Source: Pseudomonas mohnii (lineage in GTDB: Bacteria; Pseudomonadota; Gammaproteobacteria; Pseudomonadales; Pseudomonadaceae). From it: a DNA stretch of 64,000 nt. Each line of letters begins with the position of its first letter. Position 1 is the stretch's first letter. The notes under the pieces were generated by a model. That model had not been told where the DNA came from, searched no databases, and was given only the letters and a program-made list of their open reading frames with translations. This document shows, one piece after another, positions 8,619-21,172 of the stretch. Location: positions 1,302,001 to 1,366,000 of the forward strand of contig NZ_FNRV01000001.1 in the NCBI RefSeq assembly GCF_900105115.1, read 5' to 3'. The position numbers were made by a program, and so were the translations under genes.

Positions 8619-8804
8619 TGCACCCATCGCAGCGACACACAGCCACTGCGAAGGGCCGAGAGGCCTGCCGCTCTTTAACAACCTGAAGACGTACCCTGGC
8701 GCCAGACGGCGTTTGAGTCCGGGGAACAGTACGCAGCACAGCATGCTTCCTTGCGCGATATATCGGCTCGCAGGTTTGCTGAGCAACACCCACAGATTTA
8801 CTGA

Positions 8805-8825
8805 TGCCGCTTCGATGAGGCGGCA
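8805..8825 (+). promoter_or_regulatory. leader hairpin before 43-residue gene
   Basis: TGCCGC-TTCGATGAG-GCGGCA. First of a series of GC hairpins set just upstream of ribosome sites in this operon. Confidence 0.55.
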
Positions 8826-8851
8826 TTGGAAATCAACCGGAGGGCAAGACC

Positions 8852-8983
8852 ATGAATCGCAAGCAATTTCGTAAGGCCCGCGTCGCAGTGAAGTTTGACT
8901 GCATCAACCCGACCGCCTGCAACTGTGACGTTCCGGGCTATGAGAAGGCCCTGATCCTCTCACTGATGCACCGCACGAATTAG
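8852..8983 (+). CDS. very small Cys-containing phage protein
   Basis: 43 residues, MNRKQFRKARVAVKFDC then INPTACNCDVPGY. A strong CGGAGGG site lies 9 bases before the ATG, behind a hairpin. Three Cys in a short stretch (DC...ACNC) could bind a metal. First gene after the PL-like promoter, where lambda has N; no similarity to N is seen, so the role is open. Confidence 0.65.
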   Translation: MNRKQFRKARVAVKFDCINPTACNCDVPGYEKALILSLMHRTN

Positions 8984-9196
8984 GCGAAAGCCAACGAAAA
9001 AAGAGAGATGCGACCCTGGAATCTTTTCAAATAAGTCTGGATCGCCGCGTAAAGCCCCGAACGCGTCATGAAGGGGTGACAGTGCCCGATAGGTGGGTGA
9101 ATGGCGTAATGGCCTTGCATGCCGGTCCGACCTACTTCGGACACAGAATCACTGCACGACAGCCTGTCGTTAACTGCCCGATCCTCTCTATGAGAG

Positions 9197-9316
9197 CGCA
9201 TCGGGGTGTGATCTGAATCCTGCCGCCAAGCAGCACAGCTTCCATCCAGCGAGATTCGGAGGAATGAACACGGGTCGATGCAGGGATTGGCTCCTGCCAG
9301 ATCACACCCCGATGCG
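9197..9316. repeat. 17-bp perfect inverted repeat in a 709-base gene-free leader
   Basis: Arms 9197-9213 and 9300-9316 are exact reverse complements (CGCATCGGGGTGTGATC), separated by 86 bases. Between 8984 and 9692 no convincing gene is seen; open frames there lack ribosome sites and coding character. The repeat lies in the untranslated part of the PL-like transcript and could fold as RNA or bind a protein. Confidence 0.7.
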
Positions 9317-9692
9317 GACGAAACTGCGGCCTATAACCGCCCACCTGCGTCATCCCAGAATCGGTTGTTATCGAGCGCTGGCGAACTGAATACGGCCGTG
9401 GAACTCGGCGCCGGAGACGTGACCGGCAAGCAGATGCGGCGTTGAAAGCTGGGTTGAACGCTTCGGCGGCCCTGGAGAAACGCAGGTTAATACGGCGCCA
9501 GATAATGCTGGTTGCCCCTCCGAGCGGTCGTCCCGAAAGGGTCCGCTCTCGCCGGAATCGCGCCCGGCCATCTGCACCCACCCTCCCCCGACACCACCCG
9601 CATGCACTCCCCTCCGCGCCCAACGGCAACCAGCGGAATGGATGAGTGCAGCCGTGTTTTGTTGGATCAACACCGCCACTCTGGAGGCGACC

Positions 9693-9980
9693 ATGAATTA
9701 CGAAGTGATTGTTGAAGGCTTTGTCCTCCAGGTGGAGGTAACCCACTGCGAGAACACGCCGCCCTGCCCGAGCAGTTGGGACAGCGACTGGGATGCGCAG
9801 GGCTCCCGGGAACTGGAGTTCAAGTTGGTATCAGGCATCTGCTACGACGAAGACGGCGCCCGAATGGATGTCGAACGGCACCTGCTGCCTCTACTGGCCA
9901 AGCAGTACGGGCCGCAGATCGAAACCGCCCTGTGGATTGAGATCGACGCGAACCAGCGCCGGCGTAGGTGGGCAGCATGA
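9693..9980 (+). CDS. phage protein of unknown function
   Basis: 95 residues from the ATG preceded by TGGAGG and 5 bases. Beta-rich start (MNYEVIVEGFVLQVEV), the Trp/Asp-rich segment SSWDSDWDAQG and a helical end. Its stop overlaps the next start as ATGA, so it heads a tightly coupled run of five small genes up to 10729. Confidence 0.72.
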   Translation: MNYEVIVEGFVLQVEVTHCENTPPCPSSWDSDWDAQGSRELEFKLVSGICYDEDGARMDVERHLLPLLAKQYGPQIETALWIEIDANQRRRRWAA

Positions 9981-10210
9981 GCCAGCGACAGCAAGACCAT
10001 CAGACAGCCGTCACCTGGATCGAGGGTGAAATTAACAACATGATCCGCGACCTCGGCAAGCCGAACGCCAGCGCTGCAGCGACTTCAGCCATCACCCTCG
10101 CCTTCCTGCTCCACGCAATCAGTGAGGAGGAGCATCGCTGTTACCGGGCGCGCATTGATCAGATCTACGCCGACTACAACGCATCGATCAAGCAAGAGGT
10201 AGCAGCATGA
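9977..10210 (+). CDS. small helical phage protein
   Basis: 77 residues starting MSQRQQDHQTAVTWIEGEIN. ATGA overlaps on both sides give translational coupling. Helical; no family recognised. Confidence 0.7.
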   Translation: MSQRQQDHQTAVTWIEGEINNMIRDLGKPNASAAATSAITLAFLLHAISEEEHRCYRARIDQIYADYNASIKQEVAA

Positions 10211-10377
10211 CCACACCACCAGTCAAAACCCTGATCGACGAGCAGCTCGACGAGATCGAACGCAGCCTAGCGGTCATCGGCGCAGGCCTTCCCCGCGAAT
10301 TGCCGGTGTCCGCGCTGCCGCCAAAGCTTGTTGAAGCTGTTAAGGCTGGGCGAATCGCCGTGAGGCCACGACCATGA
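10207..10377 (+). CDS. very small phage protein
   Basis: 56 residues, MTTPPVKTLIDEQLDEIERS then LPRELPVSALPPKLVEAV. ATGA overlaps with both neighbours support it although it is short. Function unknown. Confidence 0.65.
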   Translation: MTTPPVKTLIDEQLDEIERSLAVIGAGLPRELPVSALPPKLVEAVKAGRIAVRPRP

Positions 10378-10616
10378 CCATGATTTGCGGTAATTGCGGC
10401 CAGTTCGGAATCCGGTGGATGGGTCCGATGAGTCGGCTCCCCCATACCGAATGCCCGCACTGCGGTGGCACGAACTGCCATCTGGTCGATCAGCCAGAGC
10501 CGGATGAGCCTGAAACTGCCACATGCAGCTGCGGCGCCCAAGGCGAGGTGAATTACGACGACGGCTCGGATCGCCGGTTCTACTGCTACAGCAGCTTACC
10601 GGCGTGCTCGCCATGA
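10374..10616 (+). CDS. small zinc-ribbon phage protein
   Basis: 80 residues with CGNC (5-8) and CPHC (27-30), a four-Cys zinc ribbon, and a second CSC...C cluster near the end (CSCGAQGEV, FYCYSSLPAC). ATGA overlaps at both ends. Probably binds zinc; partner unknown. Confidence 0.75.
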   Translation: MTMICGNCGQFGIRWMGPMSRLPHTECPHCGGTNCHLVDQPEPDEPETATCSCGAQGEVNYDDGSDRRFYCYSSLPACSP

Positions 10617-10729
10617 CCTCCTACCAACGCGCCAAGCGCTTCTGGTTCTGGCGTGGCTCTGCCATCGCCCTTCTGTTCTTCACTGCCTGGATGCTGGCCA
10701 GCTCTTACTGCGCCCAGCTCACTCAATAA
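10613..10729 (+). CDS. 38-residue membrane protein
   Basis: MTSYQRAKRFWFWRG then one membrane helix SAIALLFFTAWMLASSYC. ATGA overlap with the zinc-ribbon gene. Ends the coupled run. Confidence 0.6.
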   Translation: MTSYQRAKRFWFWRGSAIALLFFTAWMLASSYCAQLTQ

Positions 10730-10745
10730 CCCAACACCTTCAAAC

Positions 10746-10762
10746 GCTGCGTGCATCGCGGC
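10746..10762 (+). promoter_or_regulatory. leader hairpin directly before AAGGA site
   Basis: GCTGC-GTGCATC-GCGGC followed at once by AAGGA and the ATG of the coiled-coil gene; preceded by AACCCAACACCTTCAA. Confidence 0.5.
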
Positions 10763-10773
10763 AAGGATTCCTC

Positions 10774-11874
10774 ATGTCCGCAAATACCGAACTGGCCGTA
10801 GTACCGCCGCAAGAAACCGCCCTTGCCGTCTACAGCACTGAAAAGGGCCTTGAGCCCTGGCTACAGAAGATCCGCACCGAAATTGACGGCTTCACGCCTG
10901 ATATCAGCACCCGAAAGGGTCGCGATGCGATCGCTTCTATGGCCTACAAGGTTGCCCGGACCAAGACCGCTCTGGACGATGTCGGCAAGAAGCTGGTCGC
11001 CGACCTGAAGGAAGTCCCGAAGAAGATCGACGCCGAGCGAAAGCGCGTTCGCGACACTCTGGACTCATGGCAGGAAGAGGTTCGCCGTCCGCTGAACGAA
11101 TGGCAGGCCGCTGAGGACGCCAGGGTCGACAAGCACAACGATGCGATTGAACGCATCCGGGTGCTGGCCGTGGACCTGGACGGTATCACCGCCGAAGACC
11201 TGGCCGACCGCATGACAAATCTCGAAGCAGTTGCCATGGGCGCCGACTGGGAAGAGTTCGAGCCGGAAGCTGCCCGCGCCAAGGACAAAGCACTGGGCGT
11301 GCTTCGCGCCGCCCTTGCTGCTCGCCAGAAGTACGAAGCTGAGCAGCTTGAACTGGCTCGCCTTCGAAAGGAAAAAGAAGACCGCGATAAGAAGGATCAC
11401 GAAGAGCGCATTGCCCGAGAAGCTGCCGAGCGAGCCACCCGCGAGGCGGAAGAAAAGGCCCAGCGTGAGCGCGACGCCGAAGCCCAGCGCGCCCGTGATG
11501 AGAAGGCAGCAGCCGAGAAGCGCGAAAGCGACCTGAAGCTTCAGGCCGCAGAGTCTGAACGCCTCGCCGAGCAAGCCAGGCGCGAAAAGATCGAGGCCGA
11601 GCAGAAGGCTGAGCGCGACAGGCTGGCAGCTGTGGAGCGGGAGAAGCAGGCCATAGAGCAGGCTCGACTGGACGAGATCGCCCGGCAACAGGCAGCGGCC
11701 GACGAAATCCTGCGACAGGAACGACTGCGCGAGCAGGACAAAGAGCATCGCCGCTCAATCAACCTTGCAGCCCTTCAAGCCTTCGTGAAAGGCGGCATGA
11801 CTGAAGAGTGCGCGAAGCAAGCAATCACACTGATCGCCAGCCGCCAGATCCCCGCCATTTCCATTCAGTACTGA
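10774..11874 (+). CDS. long coiled-coil phage protein (recombination neighbour)
   Basis: 366 residues. The first 180 form a helical domain (LEPWLQKIRTEIDGFTPD, later KKIDAERKRVRDTLDSWQEE). Residues about 185-335 are a highly charged Glu/Lys/Arg coiled coil rich in EAE and REAEEKAQRER repeats, and the last 35 are a small helical end. AAGGA sits 6 bases before the ATG. It stands 7 bases before the ERF gene in the recombination cluster, where such proteins are common; whether it acts in recombination is inferred. Confidence 0.75.
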   Translation: MSANTELAVVPPQETALAVYSTEKGLEPWLQKIRTEIDGFTPDISTRKGRDAIASMAYKVARTKTALDDVGKKLVADLKEVPKKIDAERKRVRDTLDSWQEEVRRPLNEWQAAEDARVDKHNDAIERIRVLAVDLDGITAEDLADRMTNLEAVAMGADWEEFEPEAARAKDKALGVLRAALAARQKYEAEQLELARLRKEKEDRDKKDHEERIAREAAERATREAEEKAQRERDAEAQRARDEKAAAEKRESDLKLQAAESERLAEQARREKIEAEQKAERDRLAAVEREKQAIEQARLDEIARQQAAADEILRQERLREQDKEHRRSINLAALQAFVKGGMTEECAKQAITLIASRQIPAISIQY

Positions 11875-11881
11875 GGTCGCG

Positions 11882-12664
11882 ATGAGCAATCTTGCAGTGA
11901 AAGACCAGGTCGAGCGCATGCCGGCCATTCAAACCGAATCGGCAACCATCATGTCGATCATCCAGCAGGTGGCCATGTCGCCGGACGCTGACATCGACAA
12001 GATGGAACGCTTGATGGCGATGCATGAGCGCTTCCAGGCACAGCAGGCCAAACAGCAGTACGACGATGCGCTGGCCCAGATGCAGGAAGAAATGCCGGTG
12101 ATCGGCGAACGCGGCGGAATCAAGGACAAGAACGGCCGGATCCAGAGCACCTACGCGCTCTGGGAAGACATCAACGAGATGATCAAGCCAGTGATGGCCA
12201 AGTATGGCTTTGCCCTCACCTTCCGCACCCCGCGCAACGAGCGAGGCATCGAAGTCGAAGGCGTTCTGAGTCATCGCGCTGGGCACCGGGAAGTGACCTC
12301 GATAGTCCTGCCAGTCGATACGTCGGGCAGCAAAAACGGCGTCCAAGCTGTCGCCTCCAGCGTCAGCTACGGCAAGCGCTACACCGCAGGCCTGCTGCTC
12401 AACATCACCACGACCGGCGAAGACGACGACGGCAACGGCCCGGCCGCGCAGGTGACGCCGCGCGTGACTTCTGCCCAGGCCGCGCAACTCGCCATGCTGC
12501 TGGAGAAGTGCAGCGATAAGGCGAAAGAAGCCTTCAAAAAGATGCACGGCACCCCGGCATCGGTTGAGAAATCTCTGTTCGACCAAGTGCTCGCAATGCT
12601 CACCAAATCAGCGACCCAAAACAGCAAACCAGCCGAGGATAAAGACAATGAAAATCATCAGTAA
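11882..12664 (+). CDS. ERF family single-strand annealing protein
   Basis: 260 residues. The ERF core runs from about residue 45 to 180: KQQYDDALAQMQEEMPVI, then IQSTYALWEDINEMIKPVM, FALTFRTPR and YGKRYTAGLLLNI. The C-terminal third is polar and ends in an acidic tail. Promotes annealing of complementary single strands in phage recombination, working with the nuclease encoded next door, whose start lies inside its 3' end. Confidence 0.92.
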   Translation: MSNLAVKDQVERMPAIQTESATIMSIIQQVAMSPDADIDKMERLMAMHERFQAQQAKQQYDDALAQMQEEMPVIGERGGIKDKNGRIQSTYALWEDINEMIKPVMAKYGFALTFRTPRNERGIEVEGVLSHRAGHREVTSIVLPVDTSGSKNGVQAVASSVSYGKRYTAGLLLNITTTGEDDDGNGPAAQVTPRVTSAQAAQLAMLLEKCSDKAKEAFKKMHGTPASVEKSLFDQVLAMLTKSATQNSKPAEDKDNENHQ

Positions 12665-13265
12665 CGTAGAGCAAGGGACTCAAGAGTGGCTGGATCTGCG
12701 CCTGGGCATCGTGACCTGCTCGGAGCTGGACACTCTGCTGGTCAATGGTAAGGGCGAAGCAGGCTTCGGCGCCGGAGCATTCACCTACATGAACACGCTG
12801 ATCGGCGAGCGCATCACCGGCGAAGCTGCCGATCCGTTCCAGGGAAACCGCCACACCGAGCGCGGACATGAATACGAGGGCGTCGCCCGCGGCCTGTATC
12901 AGTCGCAGCTCGACGTCACCACCGAGCAGGTCGGCATCATCCTGAATCACGGGATTGGCTACTCGCCTGACTCGCTGATCGGCGAAGACGGCCTGTGCGA
13001 GATCAAGACCAAACTGCCGAAGTTTCAGGTGGAAGTGATCTTGTCCGGCGAGATCCCCAAGGAGCATGTCGCGCAGTGCCAGGGCGGCCTGTGGGTGTCG
13101 GATCGCGAGTGGATCGACTTCGTCAGTTACTGGCCAGGCATGAAGCTGTTCGTGAAGCGCGCCTACCGTGACGAGGTGATGATTCGCAAGATGAGCGAGC
13201 GCGTCAAAACCTTCTACGAAATCCTAGACGAGCGCATGAATCGCGTGCTCGGCATCGCCGCTTAA
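12648..13265 (+). CDS. YqaJ-like phage exonuclease
   Basis: 205 residues from the ATG that overlaps the ERF end by 17 bases. QGTQEWLDLRLGIVTCSELD near the start, then GHEYEGVAR, and ELDxxIK-type catalytic residues in SLIGEDGLCEIKTKLP followed by HVAQCQGGLWVS, all standard for lambda-Exo/YqaJ nucleases. Resects double-strand ends to give the ERF protein its substrate. Confidence 0.92.
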   Translation: MKIISNVEQGTQEWLDLRLGIVTCSELDTLLVNGKGEAGFGAGAFTYMNTLIGERITGEAADPFQGNRHTERGHEYEGVARGLYQSQLDVTTEQVGIILNHGIGYSPDSLIGEDGLCEIKTKLPKFQVEVILSGEIPKEHVAQCQGGLWVSDREWIDFVSYWPGMKLFVKRAYRDEVMIRKMSERVKTFYEILDERMNRVLGIAA

Positions 13266-13274
13266 GGAAAGCCC

Positions 13275-13757
13275 ATGCCAACACTTACCGACGTCGGCCG
13301 CATTGGTCGTGATGCTGAGCTGCGCTATACCCCGGGCGGTGACGCCGTGATCAATCTGGCCCTGGCCTGCGACTACGGTCGCAAAGGACAGGACGGCAAG
13401 CGCCCCACTCAATGGGTCGACGCCACCCTCTGGGGTAAGCAGGCCGAGGTCATGGCGCCTTACCTGCTCAAGGGACAGCAGATCTACTTCACCATGGACG
13501 ATGCCCATATCGAAACCTACGCCAAGACCAATGGCGGCGAAGGCTTCAAGCTGACGGGCAAGATCATCCTAATCAAGTTCGTCGGCTCGCCGCCTCAGGC
13601 CGCCAATCAGCCAGCGCAGCAGCCGAGGCCTCAACAGTCCCGGCAGCAGGCCGCCGCTCGCCCAGCACAGAATCAACAAGGAACGAATGGGCCGGACTAC
13701 GACAGCTTCGACGATGACATTCCCTTTGCGCCCCTCCACCACCTGAACGGTGCCTGA
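13275..13757 (+). CDS. ssb: single-stranded DNA-binding protein (phage SSB)
   Basis: 160 residues. The OB fold covers residues 1-105 (GRIGRDAELRYTPGG, WVDATLWGKQAEVMAPYL), then a Gln/Pro/Ala-rich linker. The acidic tip DSFDDDIPF that docks partner proteins in SSBs is here followed by 9 more residues, so it is not quite at the end. AAGGA lies 6 bases before the ATG. Completes the recombination trio. Confidence 0.92.
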   Translation: MPTLTDVGRIGRDAELRYTPGGDAVINLALACDYGRKGQDGKRPTQWVDATLWGKQAEVMAPYLLKGQQIYFTMDDAHIETYAKTNGGEGFKLTGKIILIKFVGSPPQAANQPAQQPRPQQSRQQAAARPAQNQQGTNGPDYDSFDDDIPFAPLHHLNGA

Positions 13758-13758
13758 T

Positions 13759-14115
13759 ATGGACCCAGCAATCGACAGAAACAACATCGCACAGATGAAA
13801 CTGGAGGCGGCGAAAGCTGCCTTTTTTGCATCTGGAGGCCGGCAGCAGTTAATCCCTATCGGCGTGGGGAAAGATAGCCTGGCCACACCAGGCGCCGAGC
13901 CTCCCAAATATGGCTACGCCAAGATCGCCGCAAAGCCGACAAAGCGCGGCAGGCTCATCACTGATGATGAAAAGGCTGCACTGGCTGCCCGGCTCATGGA
14001 ATGCAAAGCGGCCGGCATGACGCGCTACAAGGCCAGCAAGCATATCGGCATCAGCGAGACGCTTTGCCGGCGGTTGATCGCCGATTACGCGCTCGACTTC
14101 CCGGCGGCGAGTTGA
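13759..14115 (+). CDS. phage HTH protein of unknown function
   Basis: 118 residues starting MDPAIDRNNIAQMKLE. The C-terminal part has a helix-turn-helix look (GMTRYKASKHIGISETLCRR). The start is chosen at the first ATG after the SSB stop; a GTG at 13750 overlaps SSB. A DNA-binding role is inferred. Confidence 0.7.
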   Translation: MDPAIDRNNIAQMKLEAAKAAFFASGGRQQLIPIGVGKDSLATPGAEPPKYGYAKIAAKPTKRGRLITDDEKAALAARLMECKAAGMTRYKASKHIGISETLCRRLIADYALDFPAAS

Positions 14116-14196
14116 TGCGCCGCATAGCCCGCGTCCAACAACGCAAACGACAAACCTGGCTGGCATTGCCGGCCAGTGGGATAGAAGAGGTAGGTC

Positions 14197-14556
14197 ATGG
14201 CCGAGGAACAGGAGCTGACGGCGGAAGCCAAGAAGCAGCGCAAGAAACGCGAGAAGGCCGCAGCAAGGGATGCTGCATTGGGCATCGAGAAATTCACTGT
14301 TGAGGTTGCCGGGGTGTTCAAGCCTGACCTGAAGCGAGTAATGAAGGCCCACGGCATAAACAACCAGCAGGACATACACCAGCGGCTGCTGATCAACTTG
14401 ATCGCTGCCGACTTCGAAGCCCAGGCCTGGATGTTGCGGAGTGTCACGACACCTTATGAGATACCAGAAAAGGTGTCGCGAATGTTCCGAGAGGAGAGCT
14501 TGAAGGAATTACGACGCAATCCCGGGGATGAAACCTTACCCTTCACCATTATCTAG
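14197..14556 (+). CDS. phage protein of unknown function
   Basis: 119 residues; Lys/Glu-rich start (MAEEQELTAEAKKQRKKRE), then mixed helical with AWMLRSVTTPYEIPEKVS. AGAGG lies 8 bases before the ATG. Its 3' end overlaps by 21 bases the 3' end of the minus-strand gene that follows. The 80 bases before it hold no convincing gene. Confidence 0.7.
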   Translation: MAEEQELTAEAKKQRKKREKAAARDAALGIEKFTVEVAGVFKPDLKRVMKAHGINNQQDIHQRLLINLIAADFEAQAWMLRSVTTPYEIPEKVSRMFREESLKELRRNPGDETLPFTII

Positions 14557-14958
14557 ACAGAGATAACTTCTAACCTCGTAATACTCCTTAATAAATCTTA
14601 TAGTTAATTCCGCCTCGGAAAAAAGTGTGTTGACCCTATCATTCAGAATCTTAGACGTCTGCTCAAGATATCTCCAGTGGGCAAGAGAGCGCTTTAAAAT
14701 TCTTAAAGTAACAGGATAATATTCGGGAAAATTTCTAAGCTCATAAACAACAGCAATCTGCCTATCGATAAATGGAGCATCCCCTTGATTTCTTATATTC
14801 AAATCCTCTAGCAATCTATGATAACGATCGTATTGCCTCCCTCTTTCCTCAGAACGCCTTACAACTATGTAATTATAAAAAGCGATAAGAGCAATCACTA
14901 TCGATATCAGAACAGCCAAAGTCCCGTTATATTCTTGAAAAAATTCTACTATATCCAC
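14536..14958 (-). CDS. AT-rich membrane-anchored cargo protein
   Basis: 140 residues from a GTG preceded by AAGGAG and 6 bases; longer in-frame starts read into sequence unlike the rest. One membrane helix near the N-terminus (GTLAVLISIVIALIAFYNYI), then a basic RRSEERGRQYDRYH segment and a helical cytoplasmic domain. Base composition is clearly more AT-rich than neighbours and the gene opposes the operon, the marks of a late-acquired cargo gene. Possible immunity or exclusion protein; no direct evidence. Confidence 0.72.
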   Translation of the reverse strand: MDIVEFFQEYNGTLAVLISIVIALIAFYNYIVVRRSEERGRQYDRYHRLLEDLNIRNQGDAPFIDRQIAVVYELRNFPEYYPVTLRILKRSLAHWRYLEQTSKILNDRVNTLFSEAELTIRFIKEYYEVRSYLCLDNGEG

Positions 14959-15068
14959 CTGAAACTCCTTGAACCAGCTCCGTGCCGGTAACCGATCGCA
15001 TAAAACACCATCCCCTACCAAATTGCCACCACCGGTCACGGAGGGCGGCGCCCACCCGGAGATAACCT

Positions 15069-15340
15069 TGACCCCACAATTCGAAAGCCCCAACGGGCTA
15101 TGGCGGCGTCTTGGTTACGCCGTTGAGCGTGGGCCGCGCGGAGCACGGACGATTCGCCGGCCAAATGGATCTGAGGTGAACATCGACAGCGAGCGCGGAC
15201 GCCACACTGGAGAGATTGAAGCGGCGCGGCAGGAGCTGGCGCGCCTGCCGCACGGCGAAAGTGCGCGCCAGGCTGCGCAGCTCCCCATCACCTATTGCAC
15301 TGAGCGAAATCTATCACTCAGACATCCTTTGGAATCATAG
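15069..15340 (+). CDS. possible small phage protein
   Basis: 90 residues from a TTG preceded by CGGAG (earlier in-frame ATG at 14969). Reads FESPNGLWRRLGYAVERG, then EIEAARQELARLPHGES, which looks coding, but the end overlaps the minus-strand gene 15318-15542. Weakly supported; could be a remnant. Confidence 0.35.
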
Positions 15341-15542
15341 GGAACGGGCGATAGGAAGCGATTCTAGCGTTCAAAAATTCAGCAACCAGTTCTGCCTCCT
15401 CCATGGTCGCGCCTTCTCTCAGATCGAAAAAGGGCGGATCAGCCGGAAGTCCTGGGATGTCGTCTTGAAACGCCATAATCAAAAAGGGTCGCCCGTCGAC
15501 CGTCTCCTTGACCGTAAAGGCGACTCTGGTTTTGTAGCTCAT
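15318..15542 (-). CDS. small phage protein of unknown function
   Basis: 74 residues starting MSYKTRVAFTVKETVDGRPF with an ideal AAAGGAGG site. Beta-rich N-terminus, then DLREGATMEEAELVAEFLN as a helix. A single minus-strand gene inside the plus-strand operon, ending in a PFPMIPKDV tail. Function unknown. Confidence 0.72.
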   Translation of the reverse strand: MSYKTRVAFTVKETVDGRPFLIMAFQDDIPGLPADPPFFDLREGATMEEAELVAEFLNARIASYRPFPMIPKDV

Positions 15543-15645
15543 CGCGACCTCCTTTATTCGGCGTTATACCGAACCATCAACCAATACCCCACTTCAACGA
15601 ATCACGCCAGCCACCAAGAGCGGCGACTGACTCACTTACTGCGCT

Positions 15646-15804
15646 TTAGTCTTGCTTAACCCCTGTATACCAAACGCCTGTCTGCCAAACTTTCCAACTC
15701 ACGATGTTGATCTTGTGACAGTGCTCACACTGTATCTCGAACCGTTGCCTGTCATTATCGGGAACGAAGTCCATCGTTAAACCGCAGTATGCGCAATCCG
15801 ACAT
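15646..15804 (-). CDS. 52-residue zinc-ribbon protein
   Basis: Start at MSDCAYCGL, chosen for the AAGGAG site 6 bases upstream. CAYC (4-7) and CEHC (about 27-30) form a four-Cys zinc ribbon; the tail is Trp-rich (WKVWQTGVWYTG). AT-rich, opposite to the operon. Confidence 0.68.
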   Translation of the reverse strand: MSDCAYCGLTMDFVPDNDRQRFEIQCEHCHKINIVSWKVWQTGVWYTGVKQD

Positions 15805-15931
15805 TCCCAACTCCTTGTTTTCGCTATCAATCATAAAACACGCCTCAAACTGACGTTTTAAGCGTAGCCCGAATTCGCACTTTACTAAATCACGCCAGCC
15901 GGCGAGGCAGGCGCGCACCTGGAGGCAATCA

Positions 15932-16138
15932 ATGTCTACCCCCCCCCTCCGCATCAAGCGGATTGACCTGTCACGTCCGCGCATCCGTCGGCGCGTCCTG
16001 CGCGCTCTCAAATCGAGTTACAGCCTAACTGGCGGACCGATCACAAGAGCCTGGCTGTGCACTCCCGGCACTCTGGTATTCAAGCTTGGCGAATGGCGCG
16101 GTCACTACAACGCCAAGAACGAATGGGTGCCGCTATGA
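15932..16138 (+). CDS. small basic phage protein
   Basis: 68 residues, MSTPPLRIKRIDLSRPRIRR, then LTGGPITRAWLCTPGTL and a Trp-containing end. GGAGG lies 6 bases before the ATG. Very basic N-terminus; nucleic acid binding is possible. The stop overlaps the next start (ATGA). Confidence 0.7.
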   Translation: MSTPPLRIKRIDLSRPRIRRRVLRALKSSYSLTGGPITRAWLCTPGTLVFKLGEWRGHYNAKNEWVPL

Positions 16139-16326
16139 CACCTCATGAATTCATCGAGAAGAACGTTCACGACGAGCTGGTGAAGCAGGGATTCAAAGAG
16201 GGGATTTGCTTCTCCGTGTCCCGCCACGCTGTCGACTATTACCGCCAGCGCAGCATGTTCAAGAAGAACGTCATTGCGGATGTTCTGGCCTGGTCGAAGA
16301 AGCAGGCTAAGGAGATGTCGCGGTGA
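16135..16326 (+). CDS. small phage protein of unknown function
   Basis: 63 residues starting MTPHEFIEKNVHDELVKQGF, helical and basic. ATGA overlap with the gene before; its own stop overlaps a GTG of the next, probably frameshifted, reading frame. Confidence 0.68.
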   Translation: MTPHEFIEKNVHDELVKQGFKEGICFSVSRHAVDYYRQRSMFKKNVIADVLAWSKKQAKEMSR

Positions 16327-16447
16327 GCCACCCTCACCTACTCACCCGAACACCAACCAGAAGGCGCGAGAAGTCGTCCAACACGATTGGGTCAGCCAGC
16401 TATCGAGATATGCGTTCTGGTTCCGTATGGAGGACGCATTGATGTAA
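16323..16447 (+). pseudogene. possible frameshifted small phage gene
   Basis: From the GTG that overlaps the previous stop, the frame gives SHPHLLTR. A second frame then gives HPNTNQKAREVVQHDWVS and RYAFWFRMEDALM to a TAA at 16445-16447, which looks far more like a real protein. One missing base near 16345 would join them. Either a decayed gene or a sequencing error; its 3' part overlaps the minus-strand gene 16392-16613. Confidence 0.35.
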
Positions 16448-16613
16448 CCACAGAAACCTCGTACTTCCTGACTGGTTCGCCTAAAGCATTGAGCTCTTCG
16501 TAATAGTGCACTTCGGTATCTTGCTCGCTATCCGGTCCCAACCATTCAAAGTCATTGCGGACTAGCTTATGGCCCTCTGGAATTCCAATTATTTTTTTAT
16601 GCTTGTCAATCAT
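16392..16613 (-). CDS. small phage cargo protein
   Basis: 73 residues starting MIDKHKKIIGIPEGHKLVRN with an AGGAGGG site 4 bases before the ATG. Beta-rich (EVHYYEELNALGEPVRKYEV). Relatively AT-rich and opposed to the operon. No family recognised. Confidence 0.68.
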   Translation of the reverse strand: MIDKHKKIIGIPEGHKLVRNDFEWLGPDSEQDTEVHYYEELNALGEPVRKYEVSVVTSMRPPYGTRTHISIAG

Positions 16614-16683
16614 TGAGCCCTCCTCGGCCCTATTCCGTATCTCATCTTAACCAATACCCCGCCTCTACGAATAACTCCACCGC

Positions 16684-16698
16684 CCGGGCATGACCCGG
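16684..16698 (+). promoter_or_regulatory. leader hairpin before methyltransferase ribosome site
   Basis: CCGGG-CATGA-CCCGG followed by AAAGGA and the ATG at 16711; preceded by AACCAATACCCCGCCTC, a string also present at 15577. Confidence 0.5.
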
Positions 16699-16710
16699 AA
16701 AGGATCCCCT

Positions 16711-17634
16711 ATGCCTACAGCAATCGATTTGTTCGCCGGTCTCGGCGGATGGTCAACCGGTGCCCGCAATGCTGGTATCGATGTTCTTTGGGCCGCCAAC
16801 CACTGGCCGGTCGCGGTTGAGTGGCACGGCGCCAATCACCCGGATGCAATTCACATCTGCCAGGACCTGCACCAAGCGGATTGGTCGAAGGTTCCGGCCC
16901 ACGACATCATGCTGGCTTCGCCGTGCTGCCAAGGCCATTCGAAAGCCCGCGGCAAAAAGTCAGGCAGCGCTCAGCACGATGCATCTCGATCGACAGCCTG
17001 GGCCGTCGTGTCCGCCGCCGAGTTCCACCGGCCGGAAGTGGTCTTGGTCGAGAACGTCGAAGAATTCACGGCCTGGGCCTTATACCCAGCCTGGTCACAG
17101 GCAATGGCGGCGCTCGGTTACATGATCGCGCCCCATGTCGTTGATTGCGCGGACCTTGGCGTACCGCAGCATCGCGTGCGCCTGTTTCTGGTCTGCACCC
17201 GAAGCAAGGCTCCGCTCAACCTGCAGTTGCATCAGCGCGAACACGTCCCTGCTTCATCGTTCATCGACTTTGATGCTGGCAAATGGAGTGCAGTTGAAAA
17301 GCCTGGGCGCGCCGAATCGACGCTGCTCCGGGTGAAGAACGGCCGCGAACGCTTCGGCGATCGATTCATCATGCCCTACTACGGGTCAGGGTCGGGACTT
17401 ACTGGCCGCAGCCTGGATCGGCCGATCGGCACCATCACCACACTGGATCGGTGGGCCCTGGTGCGTGGCGATGAGATGCGGATGCTCTCGGCGAACGAGG
17501 CACTTGCCGCCATGTCGTTCCCAGCCGACACGAAGCGCCCGGACAACCATCGGTTGACCATGCATATGGCGGGCAACGCGGTGCCGCCGCTTGCAGGACA
17601 ACGAGTAATCGAAGCTCTGCTGAGAGCAGCATGA
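16711..17634 (+). CDS. phage C5-cytosine DNA methyltransferase
   Basis: 307 residues from the ATG preceded by AAGGA. Motif I DLFAGLGG (6-13), motif IV SPCCQGHS (70-77, with Cys73 in the catalytic place and Cys72 where Pro is usual), motif VI VENV (114-117), motif VIII QHRVR (153-157), and a C-terminal AGNAVPP motif X. Transfers a methyl group to cytosine C5. No restriction partner is seen nearby, so it is likely a solitary enzyme shielding phage DNA from host nucleases. Confidence 0.93.
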   Translation: MPTAIDLFAGLGGWSTGARNAGIDVLWAANHWPVAVEWHGANHPDAIHICQDLHQADWSKVPAHDIMLASPCCQGHSKARGKKSGSAQHDASRSTAWAVVSAAEFHRPEVVLVENVEEFTAWALYPAWSQAMAALGYMIAPHVVDCADLGVPQHRVRLFLVCTRSKAPLNLQLHQREHVPASSFIDFDAGKWSAVEKPGRAESTLLRVKNGRERFGDRFIMPYYGSGSGLTGRSLDRPIGTITTLDRWALVRGDEMRMLSANEALAAMSFPADTKRPDNHRLTMHMAGNAVPPLAGQRVIEALLRAA

Positions 17635-17662
17635 CCATCCTTTAGGGCTTGATCCGGTAAGC

Positions 17663-17911
17663 CTAGTCTGCCCAGACAGCAGTGTTCATGGTGATTGCAG
17701 GATGCTGGTTGCTATCCCGATCGTACTCCTTAGCTATCCACTTTTTCATCAAGGCTGAATTCAATCGCCGCCCCTGCTGCATGATCTTCATGACCTGCTT
17801 ATCGATTTTGTACGGCCCGCAGTCAGCGCACACACCTGAATACCAGTCGTCATCGCGCCTCAACTGCTGCGCGATATTAGTTCTGCAAATTATGCATGTC
17901 ATATGGTCCAC
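17663..17911 (-). CDS. small zinc-finger-like cargo protein
   Basis: 82 residues from a GTG behind GGGAG, or 79 from the ATG at 17902. CIIC and CADC (about 22 residues apart) make a zinc site; the rest is basic and helical (KIDKQVMKIMQQGRR). Opposed to the operon, AT-richer than its neighbours. Confidence 0.65.
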   Translation of the reverse strand: MDHMTCIICRTNIAQQLRRDDDWYSGVCADCGPYKIDKQVMKIMQQGRRLNSALMKKWIAKEYDRDSNQHPAITMNTAVWAD

Positions 17912-17969
17912 AACTGCTACTCCCGGAAAACAACCTTTCAACTATAGCTGCCTGCAGTGAGGTATCCCC

Positions 17970-18602
17970 ATGCTCACAGAAAACAAACCGGCCGAGCCTG
18001 CTCCAAGCTTGGCGACCGGTCACGAACTCAACGCTGCGACTTGGTCTGACTTCGTGGCGCGGCTGCGCTATGACTGCAATGGCCCCCGGGTCCGGGATCA
18101 CAGCACCGCGGCGGCCATCTTCATCGTGGAGCAACGCCGCATCGTCTGCGGTCTGGACATGGACTACACCGAGCAACGACTGGTTTATTTCCACAGCGGC
18201 GAGAGCGAATGTTTCAGTCCGAAAGAGTACTGGGACCAGTGTGACCGGCATGAAAAGGCCGGACTGAACAAGGCCATGCAGCTCTGGTCGGAATGCCAGT
18301 TCATGAAAGCCAGTGAGGATGATCAGTGGCACGTCCTTGGCGAGTTGGAAGATCACACCGTCACCGGCTGGCAGGAAGAGTGGGTCTACGTGAATGCTCA
18401 CCTGACCTATGCAGGGGCTGAAGCCTTCATTCAGCGCAAGAAACACGATTATCGTCGTGGCCTGCGCGTCTACGTCGAATCGCAGTATTACGCCTGGGAG
18501 TTCGAAGCGATCAAGGCTGCGATCCTCGATGGCACGCTGACCTACACGCCGAAGCCGGCAGTGAATGCCCACGATCTGGTATCGATGGAGATTGCAGGAT
18601 GA
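17970..18602 (+). CDS. phage protein of unknown function
   Basis: 210 residues, with a GAGG site 9 bases before the ATG. Mixed fold with many aromatic residues (LVYFHSGESECFSPKEYWDQ, later RRGLRVYVESQYYAWEFEA). Its stop overlaps the next start (ATGA). No family recognised. Confidence 0.72.
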   Translation: MLTENKPAEPAPSLATGHELNAATWSDFVARLRYDCNGPRVRDHSTAAAIFIVEQRRIVCGLDMDYTEQRLVYFHSGESECFSPKEYWDQCDRHEKAGLNKAMQLWSECQFMKASEDDQWHVLGELEDHTVTGWQEEWVYVNAHLTYAGAEAFIQRKKHDYRRGLRVYVESQYYAWEFEAIKAAILDGTLTYTPKPAVNAHDLVSMEIAG

Positions 18603-19096
18603 GCGAAGTTCATCGCTATAACGTCGTGACGATGCTTTCTGAAAGCGGCAACCGAATCGGTTACGACCCTCACGGCCCGGCGGTTGTCATGGCTTCAGAC
18701 TTCGACCGGGTAACCGCCGAGCGTGATGGCCTACAGCTGAGCCTGACCACCGCAGACCAGACCATCGACGACCTTCAGGCCGCAATCGCTCGCCGCAACC
18801 AGCGGATTGAGGAGCTCGAGCGTGACAAAGACCGCCTGGACGCCATCGAGGCGAACTTCTGGGACGTGCGCCATCACAGCGACGCACTTGCCGATACGGG
18901 TGACTACACCTCGAGTATCGAAATCGTCGGTCAATGGATGGATAAACCGAATGAGCGCGTAATCGGTGAGAACTACAGCGAGAACCTGCGGGCGGCCATT
19001 GACCAGGCCATGACGGCGCCGGCCTATCCCCGGCTCGCCCAGAATATCCAGAGATCGACGCACTGCTCGATGCTACCGCCGCGCTATAACCCGTAA
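18599..19096 (+). CDS. phage coiled-coil protein
   Basis: 165 residues; residues about 40-85 are a coiled coil (TAERDGLQLSLTTADQTIDD and RNQRIEELERDKDRL), common in phage ead/Ea22-like proteins. ATGA overlap with the gene before. Function unknown. Confidence 0.7.
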   Translation: MSEVHRYNVVTMLSESGNRIGYDPHGPAVVMASDFDRVTAERDGLQLSLTTADQTIDDLQAAIARRNQRIEELERDKDRLDAIEANFWDVRHHSDALADTGDYTSSIEIVGQWMDKPNERVIGENYSENLRAAIDQAMTAPAYPRLAQNIQRSTHCSMLPPRYNP

Positions 19097-19117
19097 CCCC
19101 CTCCCCCTTCAAAGTCA

Positions 19118-19131
19118 GCCGCTATAGCGGC
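19118..19131 (+). promoter_or_regulatory. leader hairpin directly before AAGGA site
   Basis: GCCGC-TATA-GCGGC followed at once by AAGGACG, 12 bases before the ATG at 19148; preceded by AACCCCCTCCCCCTTCAAAG. Confidence 0.55.
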
Positions 19132-19147
19132 AAGGACGCGCTCGACC

Positions 19148-19585
19148 ATGGAAAAGAAAAAGCTCGGCCCGGACCATTATCGCTACGTTGATGAAATCGG
19201 CCCCGATGGCCTTGAGGTTCATTGCATCACCTATCAGGTGATCGGTGAAACCGCGCAGTGCTGGTACATCGCCGATGACTACACGGTGAACATGATCAAC
19301 GGCTACCAGCACAGCTGGACCGCTGAAGCCGTGAAGAAGCGCCGCAAGCGCGTATCGAAGGATTCCGGCGGCAAGCGGTTCGCCTACCCTGACAAGGCGC
19401 ATGCTCTGCGCTCCTACAAGATCCGCAAGTCGCGTCAGCTGGGGCATGCAGAACTGACGTTGGAGCGCGCCCGTGCGGCTCTTGGCTACTTCGGTGATCT
19501 GTCCGTGACCAATGAGGCGCCCGTCGCCGACAAGCTGATCATCCCGAACGAGCACATCCAGGGACTGGGCTGGGGGTATTGCTGA
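19148..19585 (+). CDS. phage protein of unknown function
   Basis: 145 residues, MEKKKLGPDHYRYVDEIGPD, beta-rich first half (YQVIGETAQCWYIADDY), then a basic helical segment KKRRKRVSKDSGGKRF and a helical end. Its stop overlaps the next start (TGATG). No family recognised. Confidence 0.7.
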   Translation: MEKKKLGPDHYRYVDEIGPDGLEVHCITYQVIGETAQCWYIADDYTVNMINGYQHSWTAEAVKKRRKRVSKDSGGKRFAYPDKAHALRSYKIRKSRQLGHAELTLERARAALGYFGDLSVTNEAPVADKLIIPNEHIQGLGWGYC

Positions 19586-19683
19586 TGATTTTGCTCACAG
19601 CGCCAGCCCTCGCCTGGTTCGTCTGCGTGTACTGCTACAAGGAGCTGCGGGGAATAAAAATCGCCCCATCAGCCACCGAATGA
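19585..19683 (+). CDS. 32-residue membrane peptide
   Basis: MILLTAPALAWFVCVYCYKE then a short polar tail. The start shares a base with the previous stop, which supports translation. Small single-helix peptides of this kind are common in phage early operons. The 200 bases after it hold repeated leader-like sequence but no plus-strand gene. Confidence 0.5.
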   Translation: MILLTAPALAWFVCVYCYKELRGIKIAPSATE

Positions 19684-19885
19684 ACCGGACAGGAGTTCGG
19701 CAGCTGATGAGACGTAAACCTAAACAATAGCTCACTTGATCAGTTTGTCATGGGCGAAGCAATGGCGATAAGGGTTCACCCCGCCAGCCACTTCAGGGGA
19801 GAAAGCGTGTACGCAACTGGCGAGGCGAACGAATAAACCATAGCTCGCCTGCTCCGCCTCCCTCTCACCCTTCATCCGATTTCAC

Positions 19886-19916
19886 AATCCATCTACAAGT
19901 CTGCCGGTGAACGGCG
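19886..19916 (+). repeat. leader repeat copy 1, orphan
   Basis: AATCCAT...CTACAAGTCTGCCGGTGAACGGCG. Nearly the same as 20242-20276, including the GCCG-GTGAA-CGGC hairpin. Here no plus-strand gene follows; the minus-strand gene 19917-20159 lies between the two copies. Confidence 0.7.
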
Positions 19917-20159
19917 TCAAGGCAGCTGACTATCGACCCAGCGCTCTGCGGCCGACATCGCTGCATCCAAAGCGGTCGGGTAATCAGTCCACGGGCCTGA
20001 CAGCTCAGCCGCGACTTCGCCCAGTCCAACGATTTGCGCTGGCTCAATGATTATTGCTGATTCGGGTACCAAGTCGTTCGGTCTCTTCCAGGCGAACTTG
20101 AGGAACATTGTGTGGCCCCGGTACACATGCGCGATCGGCACATCCAGATTGTGTGACAC
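19917..20159 (-). CDS. small phage cargo protein
   Basis: 80 residues from a GTG preceded by GGGAGG (spacing short); in-frame ATGs at 20177, 20207 and 20219 are alternatives without ribosome sites. FLKFAWKRPNDLVPESAIII, then a helical end (ALDAAMSAAERWVDSQLP). Opposed to the operon and bracketed by two copies of a leader sequence. Confidence 0.65.
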   Translation of the reverse strand: MSHNLDVPIAHVYRGHTMFLKFAWKRPNDLVPESAIIIEPAQIVGLGEVAAELSGPWTDYPTALDAAMSAAERWVDSQLP

Positions 20160-20241
20160 ACGACCTCCCACAGACATATCAGTTTGAACGCATATTTTTA
20201 CACCCATCCTGACGCCCATGGAATCTGGGCAAAACGCTACT

Positions 20242-20276
20242 AATCCATTCCCCTATAAGCCTGCCGGTGAACGGCG
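20242..20276 (+). repeat. leader repeat copy 2, with hairpin before AGGAA site
   Basis: Contains the hairpin GCCG-GTGAA-CGGC (20263-20275) followed by GCGAGGAA and the ATG at 20291. Partner of 19886-19916. Confidence 0.6.
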
Positions 20277-20290
20277 GGCGAGGAATTCCT

Positions 20291-20713
20291 ATGTCTGAAA
20301 TACCAAAGCGTCCTTCCGCCAGCAAGGAAATCATCCTGGCGGCAGCTCAGATAGTGGCGACCAAGATTAATGCAGATGCCGAGACTATCGCTCAACACTT
20401 CCAGCCACATATGGACGGCTACGACCTTGCCAAAGAGCTGGATAAATGGGCTGGGTGGGACACAACTCGCGACGAGATGGAGTCGCTCGACGAAGTTGGA
20501 CACCTTGTAGACGAGGCTGTCAGGGATGCCGAGAAGGCATGGTTCGCCGAGAACGATATCCAGCCTCCAGTCCCAGTCGGGACACGAATAAAGGAAGGGC
20601 TGATTACCGGCATCTACGATTACTCGCCGGCCTCCTACCTGGTCAAGGAAGACGGCTGCCTGGACGACAGTCGACACCGGATTGTCCGCTTTGAAAACGC
20701 GGTCGCCGCCTAA
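20291..20713 (+). CDS. phage protein of unknown function
   Basis: 140 residues, MSEIPKRPSASKEIILAAAQ, helical first half, then a beta-rich part (VPVGTRIKEGLITGIYDYSP). GAGGAA lies 7 bases before the ATG, behind the leader hairpin. No family recognised. Confidence 0.7.
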   Translation: MSEIPKRPSASKEIILAAAQIVATKINADAETIAQHFQPHMDGYDLAKELDKWAGWDTTRDEMESLDEVGHLVDEAVRDAEKAWFAENDIQPPVPVGTRIKEGLITGIYDYSPASYLVKEDGCLDDSRHRIVRFENAVAA

Positions 20714-20730
20714 TCCCCACCCCACCTTCT

Positions 20731-20745
20731 GCCGCCACGCGCGGC
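20731..20745 (+). promoter_or_regulatory. leader hairpin before excisionase ribosome site
   Basis: GCCGC-CACGC-GCGGC followed by ATGGAG, then the ATG at 20759; preceded by TAATCCCCACCCCACCTTC. Confidence 0.5.
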
Positions 20746-20758
20746 ATGGAGCATGTAC

Positions 20759-21172
20759 ATGGCAAACGCAACAGCGGCCAAGACCACCACTATTCCACCG
20801 AGGTTCATCAGGTTCATGGATGCGCCCGGCTATCTCGGCATGTGCAAGGACGAATTCAACAAAACGGTCAGGCCGAATGTCCGGGAGTTTCCCATCGGAA
20901 AACAGGGCGTGGGGTTCGATCGCATCGAGCTGGACGCGTGGGCTGATGCCTACGTCGAGAGCAAGTCGATTGAAAAGGCAGCCAATCAGGACAACAATCG
21001 CCCTCGCAGCGAGCGCCAGGGTGAAGCCAAAGGAGGTAAACCATGGCGAGAAAAGCGATCTCTGGTCTCTATCAAAAAGGTGGAGTCTGGCAAATCGACA
21101 AAGTTTTCCGGGGTGAGCGACTTCGAGAAAGCACTGGAACTGGTGACCGGCAAGAAGCCGAGCAGTACCTGA
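20759..21172 (+). CDS. xis: probable excisionase / recombination directionality factor
   Basis: 137 residues; GGAG lies 7 bases before the ATG. Residues about 14-65 (RFIRFMDAPGYLGMCKDEFN, then FPIGKQGVGFDRIELDAWAD) resemble the winged-helix DNA-binding fold of excisionases, with AWADAYVE like the end of MerR/Xis domains. The tail (SDFEKALELVTGKK) is coding in spite of overlapping the integrase start by 130 bases in another frame. Family call is from position and fold pattern. Confidence 0.75.
   Translation: MANATAAKTTTIPPRFIRFMDAPGYLGMCKDEFNKTVRPNVREFPIGKQGVGFDRIELDAWADAYVESKSIEKAANQDNNRPRSERQGEAKGGKPWREKRSLVSIKKVESGKSTKFSGVSDFEKALELVTGKKPSST

Follow-up and report, generated by a model that had tools for sequence, protein, structure and literature searches.

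The DNA analysed here, called the window throughout, is a stretch of 64,000 nucleotides (nt) from Pseudomonas mohnii (assembly GCF_900105115.1, contig NZ_FNRV01000001.1, positions 1,302,001 to 1,366,000). Its bases 1 to ~22300, beside a tRNA-Pro gene, are part of a temperate prophage in which several genes are preceded by short structured leaders, and these look like interchangeable start signals before unrelated genes that help temperate Pseudomonas phages to swap genes. Pseudomonas phages make up 19 of the 20 phage records with similar DNA, and the phage host is taken as Pseudomonas. The phage part encodes a tyrosine integrase (21043-22221), an ERF recombinase (PF04404), an SSB and a C5 methyltransferase. 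The leaders, their Shine-Dalgarno sequences (SD) and the genes behind them are listed below.

8795..8834, + strand: R1 leader of gene 8852, reading GATTT, bulged A, CTGATGCCGCTTC, loop GAT, GAGGCGGCATTGG, AAATC (fold z -4.5, covariation)
8839..8843, + strand: SD GGAGG of 8852 (sequence)
8852..8983, + strand: small open reading frame (ORF) of 43 amino acids (aa), first after the R1 leader (own gene call)
10728..10745, + strand: type B G-poor tract AACCCAACACCTTCAAAC (sequence)
10746..10762, + strand: type B flush hairpin GCTGCG-TGCAT-CGCGGC, 0 nt before AAGGA (stem score, orthologues, pattern search)
10763..10767, + strand: SD AAGGA of 10774 (sequence)
10774..11874, + strand: phrog_1376 protein; some phage records call it TolA protein (PHROGs)
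16684..16698, + strand: type C flush hairpin CCGGG-CATGA-CCCGG, 1 nt before AAGGA, gene 16711 (stem score, pattern search)
16711..17634, + strand: C5 cytosine DNA methyltransferase (PF00145)
19099..19117, + strand: type A tract, an exact copy of the consensus CCCTCCCCCTTCAAAGTCA (kept over 41 upstream/downstream combinations)
19118..19131, + strand: type A flush hairpin GCCGC-TATA-GCGGC, 0 nt before AAGGA (stem score, context searches)
19132..19136, + strand: SD AAGGA of 19148 (sequence)
19148..19585, + strand: phrog_13631 protein, no function assigned (PHROGs)
20259..20279, + strand: type D flush hairpin GCCTGCCG-GTGAA-CGGCGGGC, 0 nt before GAGG (stem score, pattern searches)
20280..20283, + strand: SD GAGG of 20291 (sequence)
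20291..20713, + strand: phrog_17597 protein, no function assigned (PHROGs)
20730..20746, + strand: type E flush hairpin TGCCGC-CACGC-GCGGCA, 1 nt before GGAG, gene 20759 (stem score, orthologues, pattern search)
20759..21172, + strand: phrog_13517 protein, overlapping the integrase start by 130 nt (PHROGs)

A sequence-only reading of this DNA had placed a hairpin just 5' of the SD at six starts, and stem scoring and folding recover it at all six, at distances of 0-4 nt. What that reading took for a single leader type is instead a merger of two distinct classes. The flush class (10774, 16711, 19148, 20291 and 20759) is defined by a GC hairpin of 5-8 base pairs (bp) that ends 0-1 nt before the SD and follows a G-poor tract, and the R1 class (8852) by a bulged hairpin of ~18 bp that ends 4 nt before GGAGG (model match 8784-8840). 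The C-rich string said to precede most of the hairpins can be made out fully at 10774, 19148 and 20759 and in part at 16711 and 20291, and 8852 lacks it. Further starts of the stretch that do not overlap their neighbour (9693, 15932 and 17970) have no flush stem. For each of the five flush hairpins p is ≤ 0.007 when the sequence upstream of that start is dinucleotide-shuffled 300 times. Whole-leader folding energy is ordinary in five of the seven window leaders folded, the exceptions being 8852 (z -4.5) and 20291 (z -2.2), and it is the position of the stem relative to the SD, not the energy of the whole leader, that stands out as the distinguishing trait.

Flush hairpins in related phage loci

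Related phage loci were found with three baits (phrog_1376, phrog_13517 and the type A 19-mer), and after near-identical upstream stretches were collapsed the 285 loci gave 1830 phage genes and 252 host genes. The gene caller was home-made and, on one phage stretch with 30 annotated genes, recovered 24 exactly and 26 by stop; its overlap rule was loosened after that benchmark and before flush stems were counted. A strict stem had at least 5 bp, at least four GC pairs, at most one G.U pair and a loop of 3-8 nt, and ended 0-1 nt before the SD.

The expected enrichment before genes over background was found, since a strict flush stem stands before 104 of 745 same-strand phage genes with a gap of at least 30 nt (14.0%), compared with 0.9% in dinucleotide shuffles. 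The counts are 56/281 at gaps of 30-90 nt (shuffles 1.1%) and 58/749 at gaps above 90 nt on either strand (0.8%), compared with 10/642 (1.6%; shuffles 1.8%) at gaps below 15 nt and 2/178 host genes (1.1%; shuffles 0.6%). With bait genes and type A removed, 71 of 686 genes (10.3%) still carry such a stem, against 1.2% in shuffles, and these come from 51 of 384 protein families and show 40 different stems. The frequency of strict stems falls with distance from the SD, from 7.9% at 0 nt and 6.6% at 1 nt to 2.7% at 2 nt, 2.3% at 3 nt and 0.4-1.6% at 4-23 nt. The exact end depends on the SD, stems stopping at 0 nt in 30/47 leaders with AAGGA and 25/36 with GAGG, and at 1 nt in 29/66 with GGAG.

A second set, of named genomes with phrog_1376 relatives, gave flush stems at 24/223 starts in Pseudomonas (3.2 expected) and 5/32 in Stutzerimonas and Halopseudomonas (0 expected). 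Burkholderiales (2/57, 0.4 expected) and other gammaproteobacteria (3/45, 0.2 expected) were both above shuffles, and alphaproteobacterial loci yielded 0/106 (1.2 expected). In the Achromobacter and Bordetella loci shown, the phrog_1376 start lies directly behind the preceding gene; this contrast is not absolute because two of those loci have short 4-bp stems near the SD. A general phage feature was considered and rejected, strict flush stems being found at 0/18 uncoupled starts in lambda, 0/17 in Sf6, 0/15 in PAJU2 and 2/17 in Haboob over the stretches read.

The sequence-only reading had also held that stems and loops differ while pairing is kept, and compensatory and wobble changes in orthologous leaders agree with it. 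When orthologue sets were taken regardless of structure (stem of at least 5 bp with three GC pairs, loop of at most 10 nt), 24 of 32 distinct phrog_1376 leaders had a flush stem, in 18 arm/loop forms, where 1.3 were expected. The stem is kept in 17/39 phrog_13517 leaders (1.5 expected), 3/14 for the methyltransferase (0.2) and 2/9 for the gene at 17970 (0.3), and coupled neighbours gave 0/25 for ERF, 0/17 for integrase, 2/44 for exonuclease (1.7 expected) and 2/12 for SSB (0.5). Alignment A1 holds 35 of 80 phrog_1376 loci (33 distinct), hand-picked for distinct leaders after inspection and omitting L069 and L073, which lack a clear flush stem, so that the 24/32 above is the unselected count. 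Its covariation score is 0.331, against 0.164 when shuffled and at most 0.165 when slid; 23 cells changed on both sides (9.9 when shuffled), and three pairs changed on both sides, no more than the 3.1 of shuffled alignments.

Among flush stems with one non-Watson-Crick position, G.U occurs 48 times, A.C 9 times and other mismatches 30 times, compared with 1.8, 2.5 and 10.7 in shuffles (20, 9 and 26 when distinct arm pairs are counted). G.U is thus kept far above A.C, which argues that the sense-strand RNA matters, because a DNA palindrome would not discriminate between the two. A DNA palindrome or operator was accordingly rejected as contradicted by this bias and by the loops, yet mismatches of other kinds likewise exceed the shuffled count (30 vs 10.7).

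The 20 nt 5' of the stem contain 10% G, against 25% elsewhere, and the level is back to 25% at 30-40 nt. The predicted unpaired probability of this tract is 0.68, compared with 0.42 in phage genes without hairpins (p 7e-26), and it often opens with an apparent stop codon (TAACCC in 17% of 115 tracts vs 2% in shuffles). Hairpin leaders have a slightly less stable SD helix (median -5.8 vs -6.5, p 7e-4), which would fit help from the hairpin but is suggestive only. The register against the 3' end of 16S rRNA is likewise no more than suggestive: position 1541 or 1542 lies opposite the final base of the stem in 93 of 208 leaders, and position 1539 in 25, all of them GAGG leaders.

Other functions for these sequences were tried and set aside. 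Sequestering of the SD by the C-rich tract finds no excess complementarity (3.10 vs 3.25 with shuffled tracts), and an intrinsic terminator is opposed by the lack of a T run behind the stems at the named leaders. An RsmA/CsrA site as a general reading fails on the full RsmA motif CANGGAYG, as it occurs in 1/115 flush leaders outside type A, 5/127 with type A and 14/850 hairpin-free leaders.

A longer stem further from its SD was also folded in the window:

14156..14176, + strand: 9 bp hairpin CTGGCTGGC-ATT-GCCGGCCAG, 10 nt before the SD GAGG of 14197, not flush (fold)

Two minus-strand starts inside the operon (14958 and 15542) have stems 1-2 nt from the SD too, and a decayed type D-like leader, GTCTGCCGGTGAACGGCGTC, lies at 19899-19918, where a start codon is not close behind. 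The overlap of the phrog_13517 gene with the integrase gene is in another frame and recurs in relatives (median gap -130, 17 distinct leaders).

Portable leaders and the R1 class

Type A leaders (GCCGCTATAGCGGC) were collected by hairpin and SD, so those bases are fixed by the search and the 19-nt tract is free. The leader is 38 nt long, and its 186 contexts include 22 downstream protein families (162 contexts with a called gene) and 16 upstream families (93 contexts), with 41 upstream/downstream combinations in the 83 contexts where both neighbours were called. Across these combinations tract identity is 0.80-0.99, dropping to 0.6-0.7 in the 20 nt past the SD and to ~0.4 beyond, on both sides. 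The earlier suggestion that such a leader could be a module boundary for recombination is thereby supported for type A. SD-to-start spacing in type A is 5-13 nt. The exact 19-mer stands 5' of an ORF of at least 30 aa in 146 of 154 distinct contexts among the matches listed, and was found in 0/142 genomes of other genera of the class. The palindrome alone is present in 60 of 199 genomes of the genus, a figure that is uninformative by itself, as the reversed pattern is common too; the evidence lies in 30 loci that were read, of which 23 have an SD and start, three are damaged copies and four are chance-like. The type A hairpin recurs at two more sites of the window's own genome, and GCGGCAAGGA before ATG occurs there at 10 places, compared with 2 for the reversed pattern.

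When the SD was not required by the pattern, an SD and start followed in 174 of 383 type A contexts (palindromes counted on both strands; 23 families), 82/89 of type B (9 families), 76/94 of type C (6) and 120/124 of type D (37). The loose type E pattern, which takes in antisense and unrelated sites, gave 121/501 (20 families), and a loose eighth pattern, type H, only 7/27. Type D was present in 33 of 99 genomes of the genus, with SD and start at 19 of the 28 places read, of 39. Leaders and genes are joined many-to-many, a single gene family standing behind different leaders and a single leader before many families.

Several of the unrelated proteins behind type A (e.g. L002:3558-3884) start with MPEE, conservation running a few codons into the gene, as if exchange breakpoints lay just inside it. 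In L309, which is in the window's own genome, and L093 a type A leader is followed by ATA in place of a start codon, and these are damaged copies.

The R1 family (GAUUUCACUG...GGGAAAUCAAC) runs from GATTTCACTG through a variable, short-looped stem of ~9 bp to GGGAAATCAACC. Alignment A3 (34 sequences) combines the window with 33 of 36 contexts, leaving out L293 and L460, plainly not the element, and L036, a near copy; because contexts were chosen by flanking motifs the outer helix is conditioned by the choice and the inner pairs are not. Pairing is kept in 94.3% of its pair cells, 10 of the 17 pairs show two-sided changes, and covariation scores 0.504 (0.165 shuffled, at most 0.068 slid). A5, comprising 47 distinct matches from genus genomes fitted to the model, window included, scores 0.523 against 0.141 shuffled. 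The covariation of R1 is thus very strong and agrees with kept pairing. Under strict filters the model matches at E ≤ 0.001 in 29 of 59 genomes of the genus, including the window's own, and in 0/55 genomes of other genera of the class. Its 115 distinct elements, from a context count using 127 of 129 matches (the two dropped duplicate other places), have an ORF of at least 30 aa starting within 80 nt in 113 cases and a called gene within 110 nt in 93. They stand before 63 downstream protein families, in up to three copies per locus at spacings of 148 to 1406 nt. Rfam 15, scanned over bases 1-23000 of the window, gave no match at the named leaders, R1 included, up to E 1, yielding only a tRNA and three sub-threshold matches elsewhere; the 8852 ORF gave no match in PHROGs.

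Upstream of the first leader lies a further motif:

8669..8680, + strand: boxA-like antitermination motif CGCTCTTTAACA (exact match, one in the window, 0.21 expected by chance)

It precedes the window's R1 match by 115 nt, R1 recurring before later genes, an arrangement compared with a lambda-type nut site, in which boxA adjoins a boxB hairpin at the operon head. Across loci, a similar motif lies 5' of the first R1 in 46 of 69, at 179-294 nt in 32 of those 46, with 0 in downstream controls, whose number was not recorded. R1 is thus distinct from that motif and presumably lies near the head of an antiterminated early operon.

In the same part of the prophage, the unannotated intergenic stretch 9155-9316 is 97-100% conserved over 38-62 nt in six of eight matching phage records and contains a 17-nt inverted repeat (9197-9213 / 9300-9316). 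It has the look of a non-coding RNA. Folded over 9150-9299, a span without the second repeat arm, it does no better than shuffles (z -0.73).

Proposed function, rival explanations and nearest known kinds

Structure, strand, closeness to the SD, the predicted single-stranded tract and the many-to-many pairing of leaders with genes are all supported by comparative computation. On that basis it is reasonably likely that temperate Pseudomonas phages use the leaders as portable translation-initiation modules, which would work at the mRNA level where a gene is not translationally coupled to its neighbour, and the conserved leader sequence may serve recombination as well. Translation initiation is favoured because stems are tied to the SD, coupled genes lack them and the strand 5' of the stem is predicted to be free, and the translation signal proposed from the sequence alone gains comparative support from stems set against the SD, kept pairing and sense orientation before ORFs. 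The flush module would consist of a G-poor single-stranded tract of ~20 nt, serving as a standby site or landing strip, a hairpin of 5-8 bp and an SD 0-1 nt further on. The 30S subunit would land on the tract and the hairpin would stack end-on onto the short SD:anti-SD helix; by this proposal the start would therefore work in any gene context, with a gain in translation. Landing and stacking are favoured because of the standby model, in which a free distal strand sets ribosome landing and which, for a zero proximal spacer, names co-axial stacking with the mRNA-rRNA duplex (PMC3936740). The longer, bulged R1 hairpin may do the same job, or may add recognition or processing. Because self-contained start signals repeat before unrelated genes, leaders would also offer homology for whole-gene exchange by a phage annealing recombinase, ERF being the likely enzyme, and exchange at leaders fits because identity drops at the type A edges and joining is many-to-many. 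More tentative, and in our judgement somewhat short of an even chance, is the full picture of a two-class set of portable RNA start modules in which R1 is a new structured RNA family near the early-operon head and flush hairpins stack on the SD:anti-SD helix, so giving context-independent ribosome binding and early genes that are swappable as plug-in units.

Several results weigh against a translational role of this kind. Most uncoupled phage genes (86%) lack a strict flush stem, the uncoupled orthologue sets 18599 (0/8), 14197 (0/6) and 20291 (0/2) are without one, and leaders with AAGGAG have the stem at 0 nt in only 7 of 25 cases. Stem-to-start distance clusters as well, at 11-13 nt in 118 of 177 leaders, and for that reason the SD and the start are hard to separate as anchor outside type A. 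Only 64% of leaders have a stem whose predicted mean pair probability exceeds 0.5, and a rough count puts the standby surface score at 20 or more, the threshold for removing the binding penalty, in only 23%. Opening the SD is predicted to cost no less than in hairpin-free phage genes (median 3.04 vs 3.30 kcal/mol, p 0.36) and only slightly less than with shuffled upstream sequence (3.04 vs 3.45 kcal/mol, p 0.019), which makes simple SD unmasking a weak explanation. Three of the window's leaders (10774, 20291 and 20759) have a best fold in which some tract bases pair with the SD or the spacer, and the type A tract sequence is conserved beyond the need of structure alone. For structures far upstream in T7/E. 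coli transcripts, single hairpins brought no rise in translation and C-rich transcripts lowered it, while two tandem hairpins raised it (PMC11087576).

A rival reading is that the leaders are mainly boundary DNA, kept at gene junctions for swaps by recombinases, with the hairpin secondary. The type A island, its tract well conserved between many upstream and downstream families and the sequence outside divergent, and the ERF recombinase encoded nearby speak for this, and Rad52-like recombinases have been reported as drivers of phage mosaicism, with D3 Erf efficient on diverged sequence (PMC3945230). DNA homology alone, however, leaves unexplained the stem changes with kept pairing in orthologues, the preference for G.U over A.C and the setting of stems against the SD, and in mycobacteriophages boundary sequences could not be found at most mosaic junctions (PMC3029335). 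We regard the boundary reading as unlikely.

Less likely still is that the leaders are elements of mRNA processing or stability, cut by RNase III at the long R1 hairpins and by RNase E in the tract so that each gene receives its own stable messenger. R1, with ~18 bp, a mostly conserved bulged base and up to three copies per locus before successive early genes, has a parallel in T7, where RNase III sites lie between the early genes, and the G-poor tract is predicted to be single-stranded; yet stems of 5-8 bp are too short for RNase III, and the position of the short flush stems against the SD would go unexplained. We judge it very improbable that the leaders are operators at which an RNA-binding protein, encoded by phage or host, regulates translation, even though R1 keeps two U.G pairs (45/47 rows each) and the flank GGRAANNCAAC while the rest of its stem varies, a pattern that looks like recognition (the flank was also a search motif). 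The CANGGA core of the RsmA motif is found in 50/127 flush leaders vs 106/850, an enrichment that arises because stems end in C before AAGGA, and ANGGA lies in the loop of 18/127 flush leaders vs 62/850 hairpin-free and 15/178 host leaders. Against operators stand the flush-class loops and stems, which have no common sequence, and the near absence outside type A of the full motif (the single leader in 115 noted above).

The nearest known kind is the start-associated sequences (SAS/ESAS) of cluster K mycobacteriophages, to which the sequence-only reading had likened the leaders. The analogy is apt, as both are multi-copy, contain an SD and stand before non-structural genes of different families in one phage group (PMC3203893). 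It is not one of homology: SAS is a single 13-bp sequence, GGGATAGGAGCCC, with 0 matches within two mismatches in the window, and the Pseudomonas leaders have many stem sequences with kept pairing, the opposite of ESAS, in which changes in the inverted repeat do not generally support RNA pairing (PMC3203893). Lambdoid boundary sequences (bsq features of the Sf6 record), short conserved stretches between non-homologous flanks with proposed exchange homology, are matched by type A, which is conserved between non-homologous genes on both sides, but the Pseudomonas element is a structured ribosome-binding leader. The standby-site module shares the order of single-stranded strand, hairpin and SD, which is predicted for the leaders too, and names a zero-spacer case; it is a biophysical model from synthetic 5' untranslated regions, whereas the Pseudomonas leader is natural and repeated, with a spacer of 0-1 (PMC3936740). 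The RNase III signals of T7 resemble R1 in forming a hairpin before each of several early genes, a likeness of arrangement. Among the titles and abstract openings listed by searches of the open-access literature, several of them capped and subscription papers being outside the scope, none described the Pseudomonas leaders, and the palindrome string matched solely an unrelated spider paper.

If the proposed role is correct, the leaders would explain how phages keep newly captured genes translated, and they would offer a way to test physically if initiation gains from a hairpin in contact with the SD. They would add a covariation-supported RNA family and mark the slots of accessory genes, so that a simple search could gather the genes behind one leader type. 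A further possible use is as ribosome binding sites for Pseudomonas that work independently of context.

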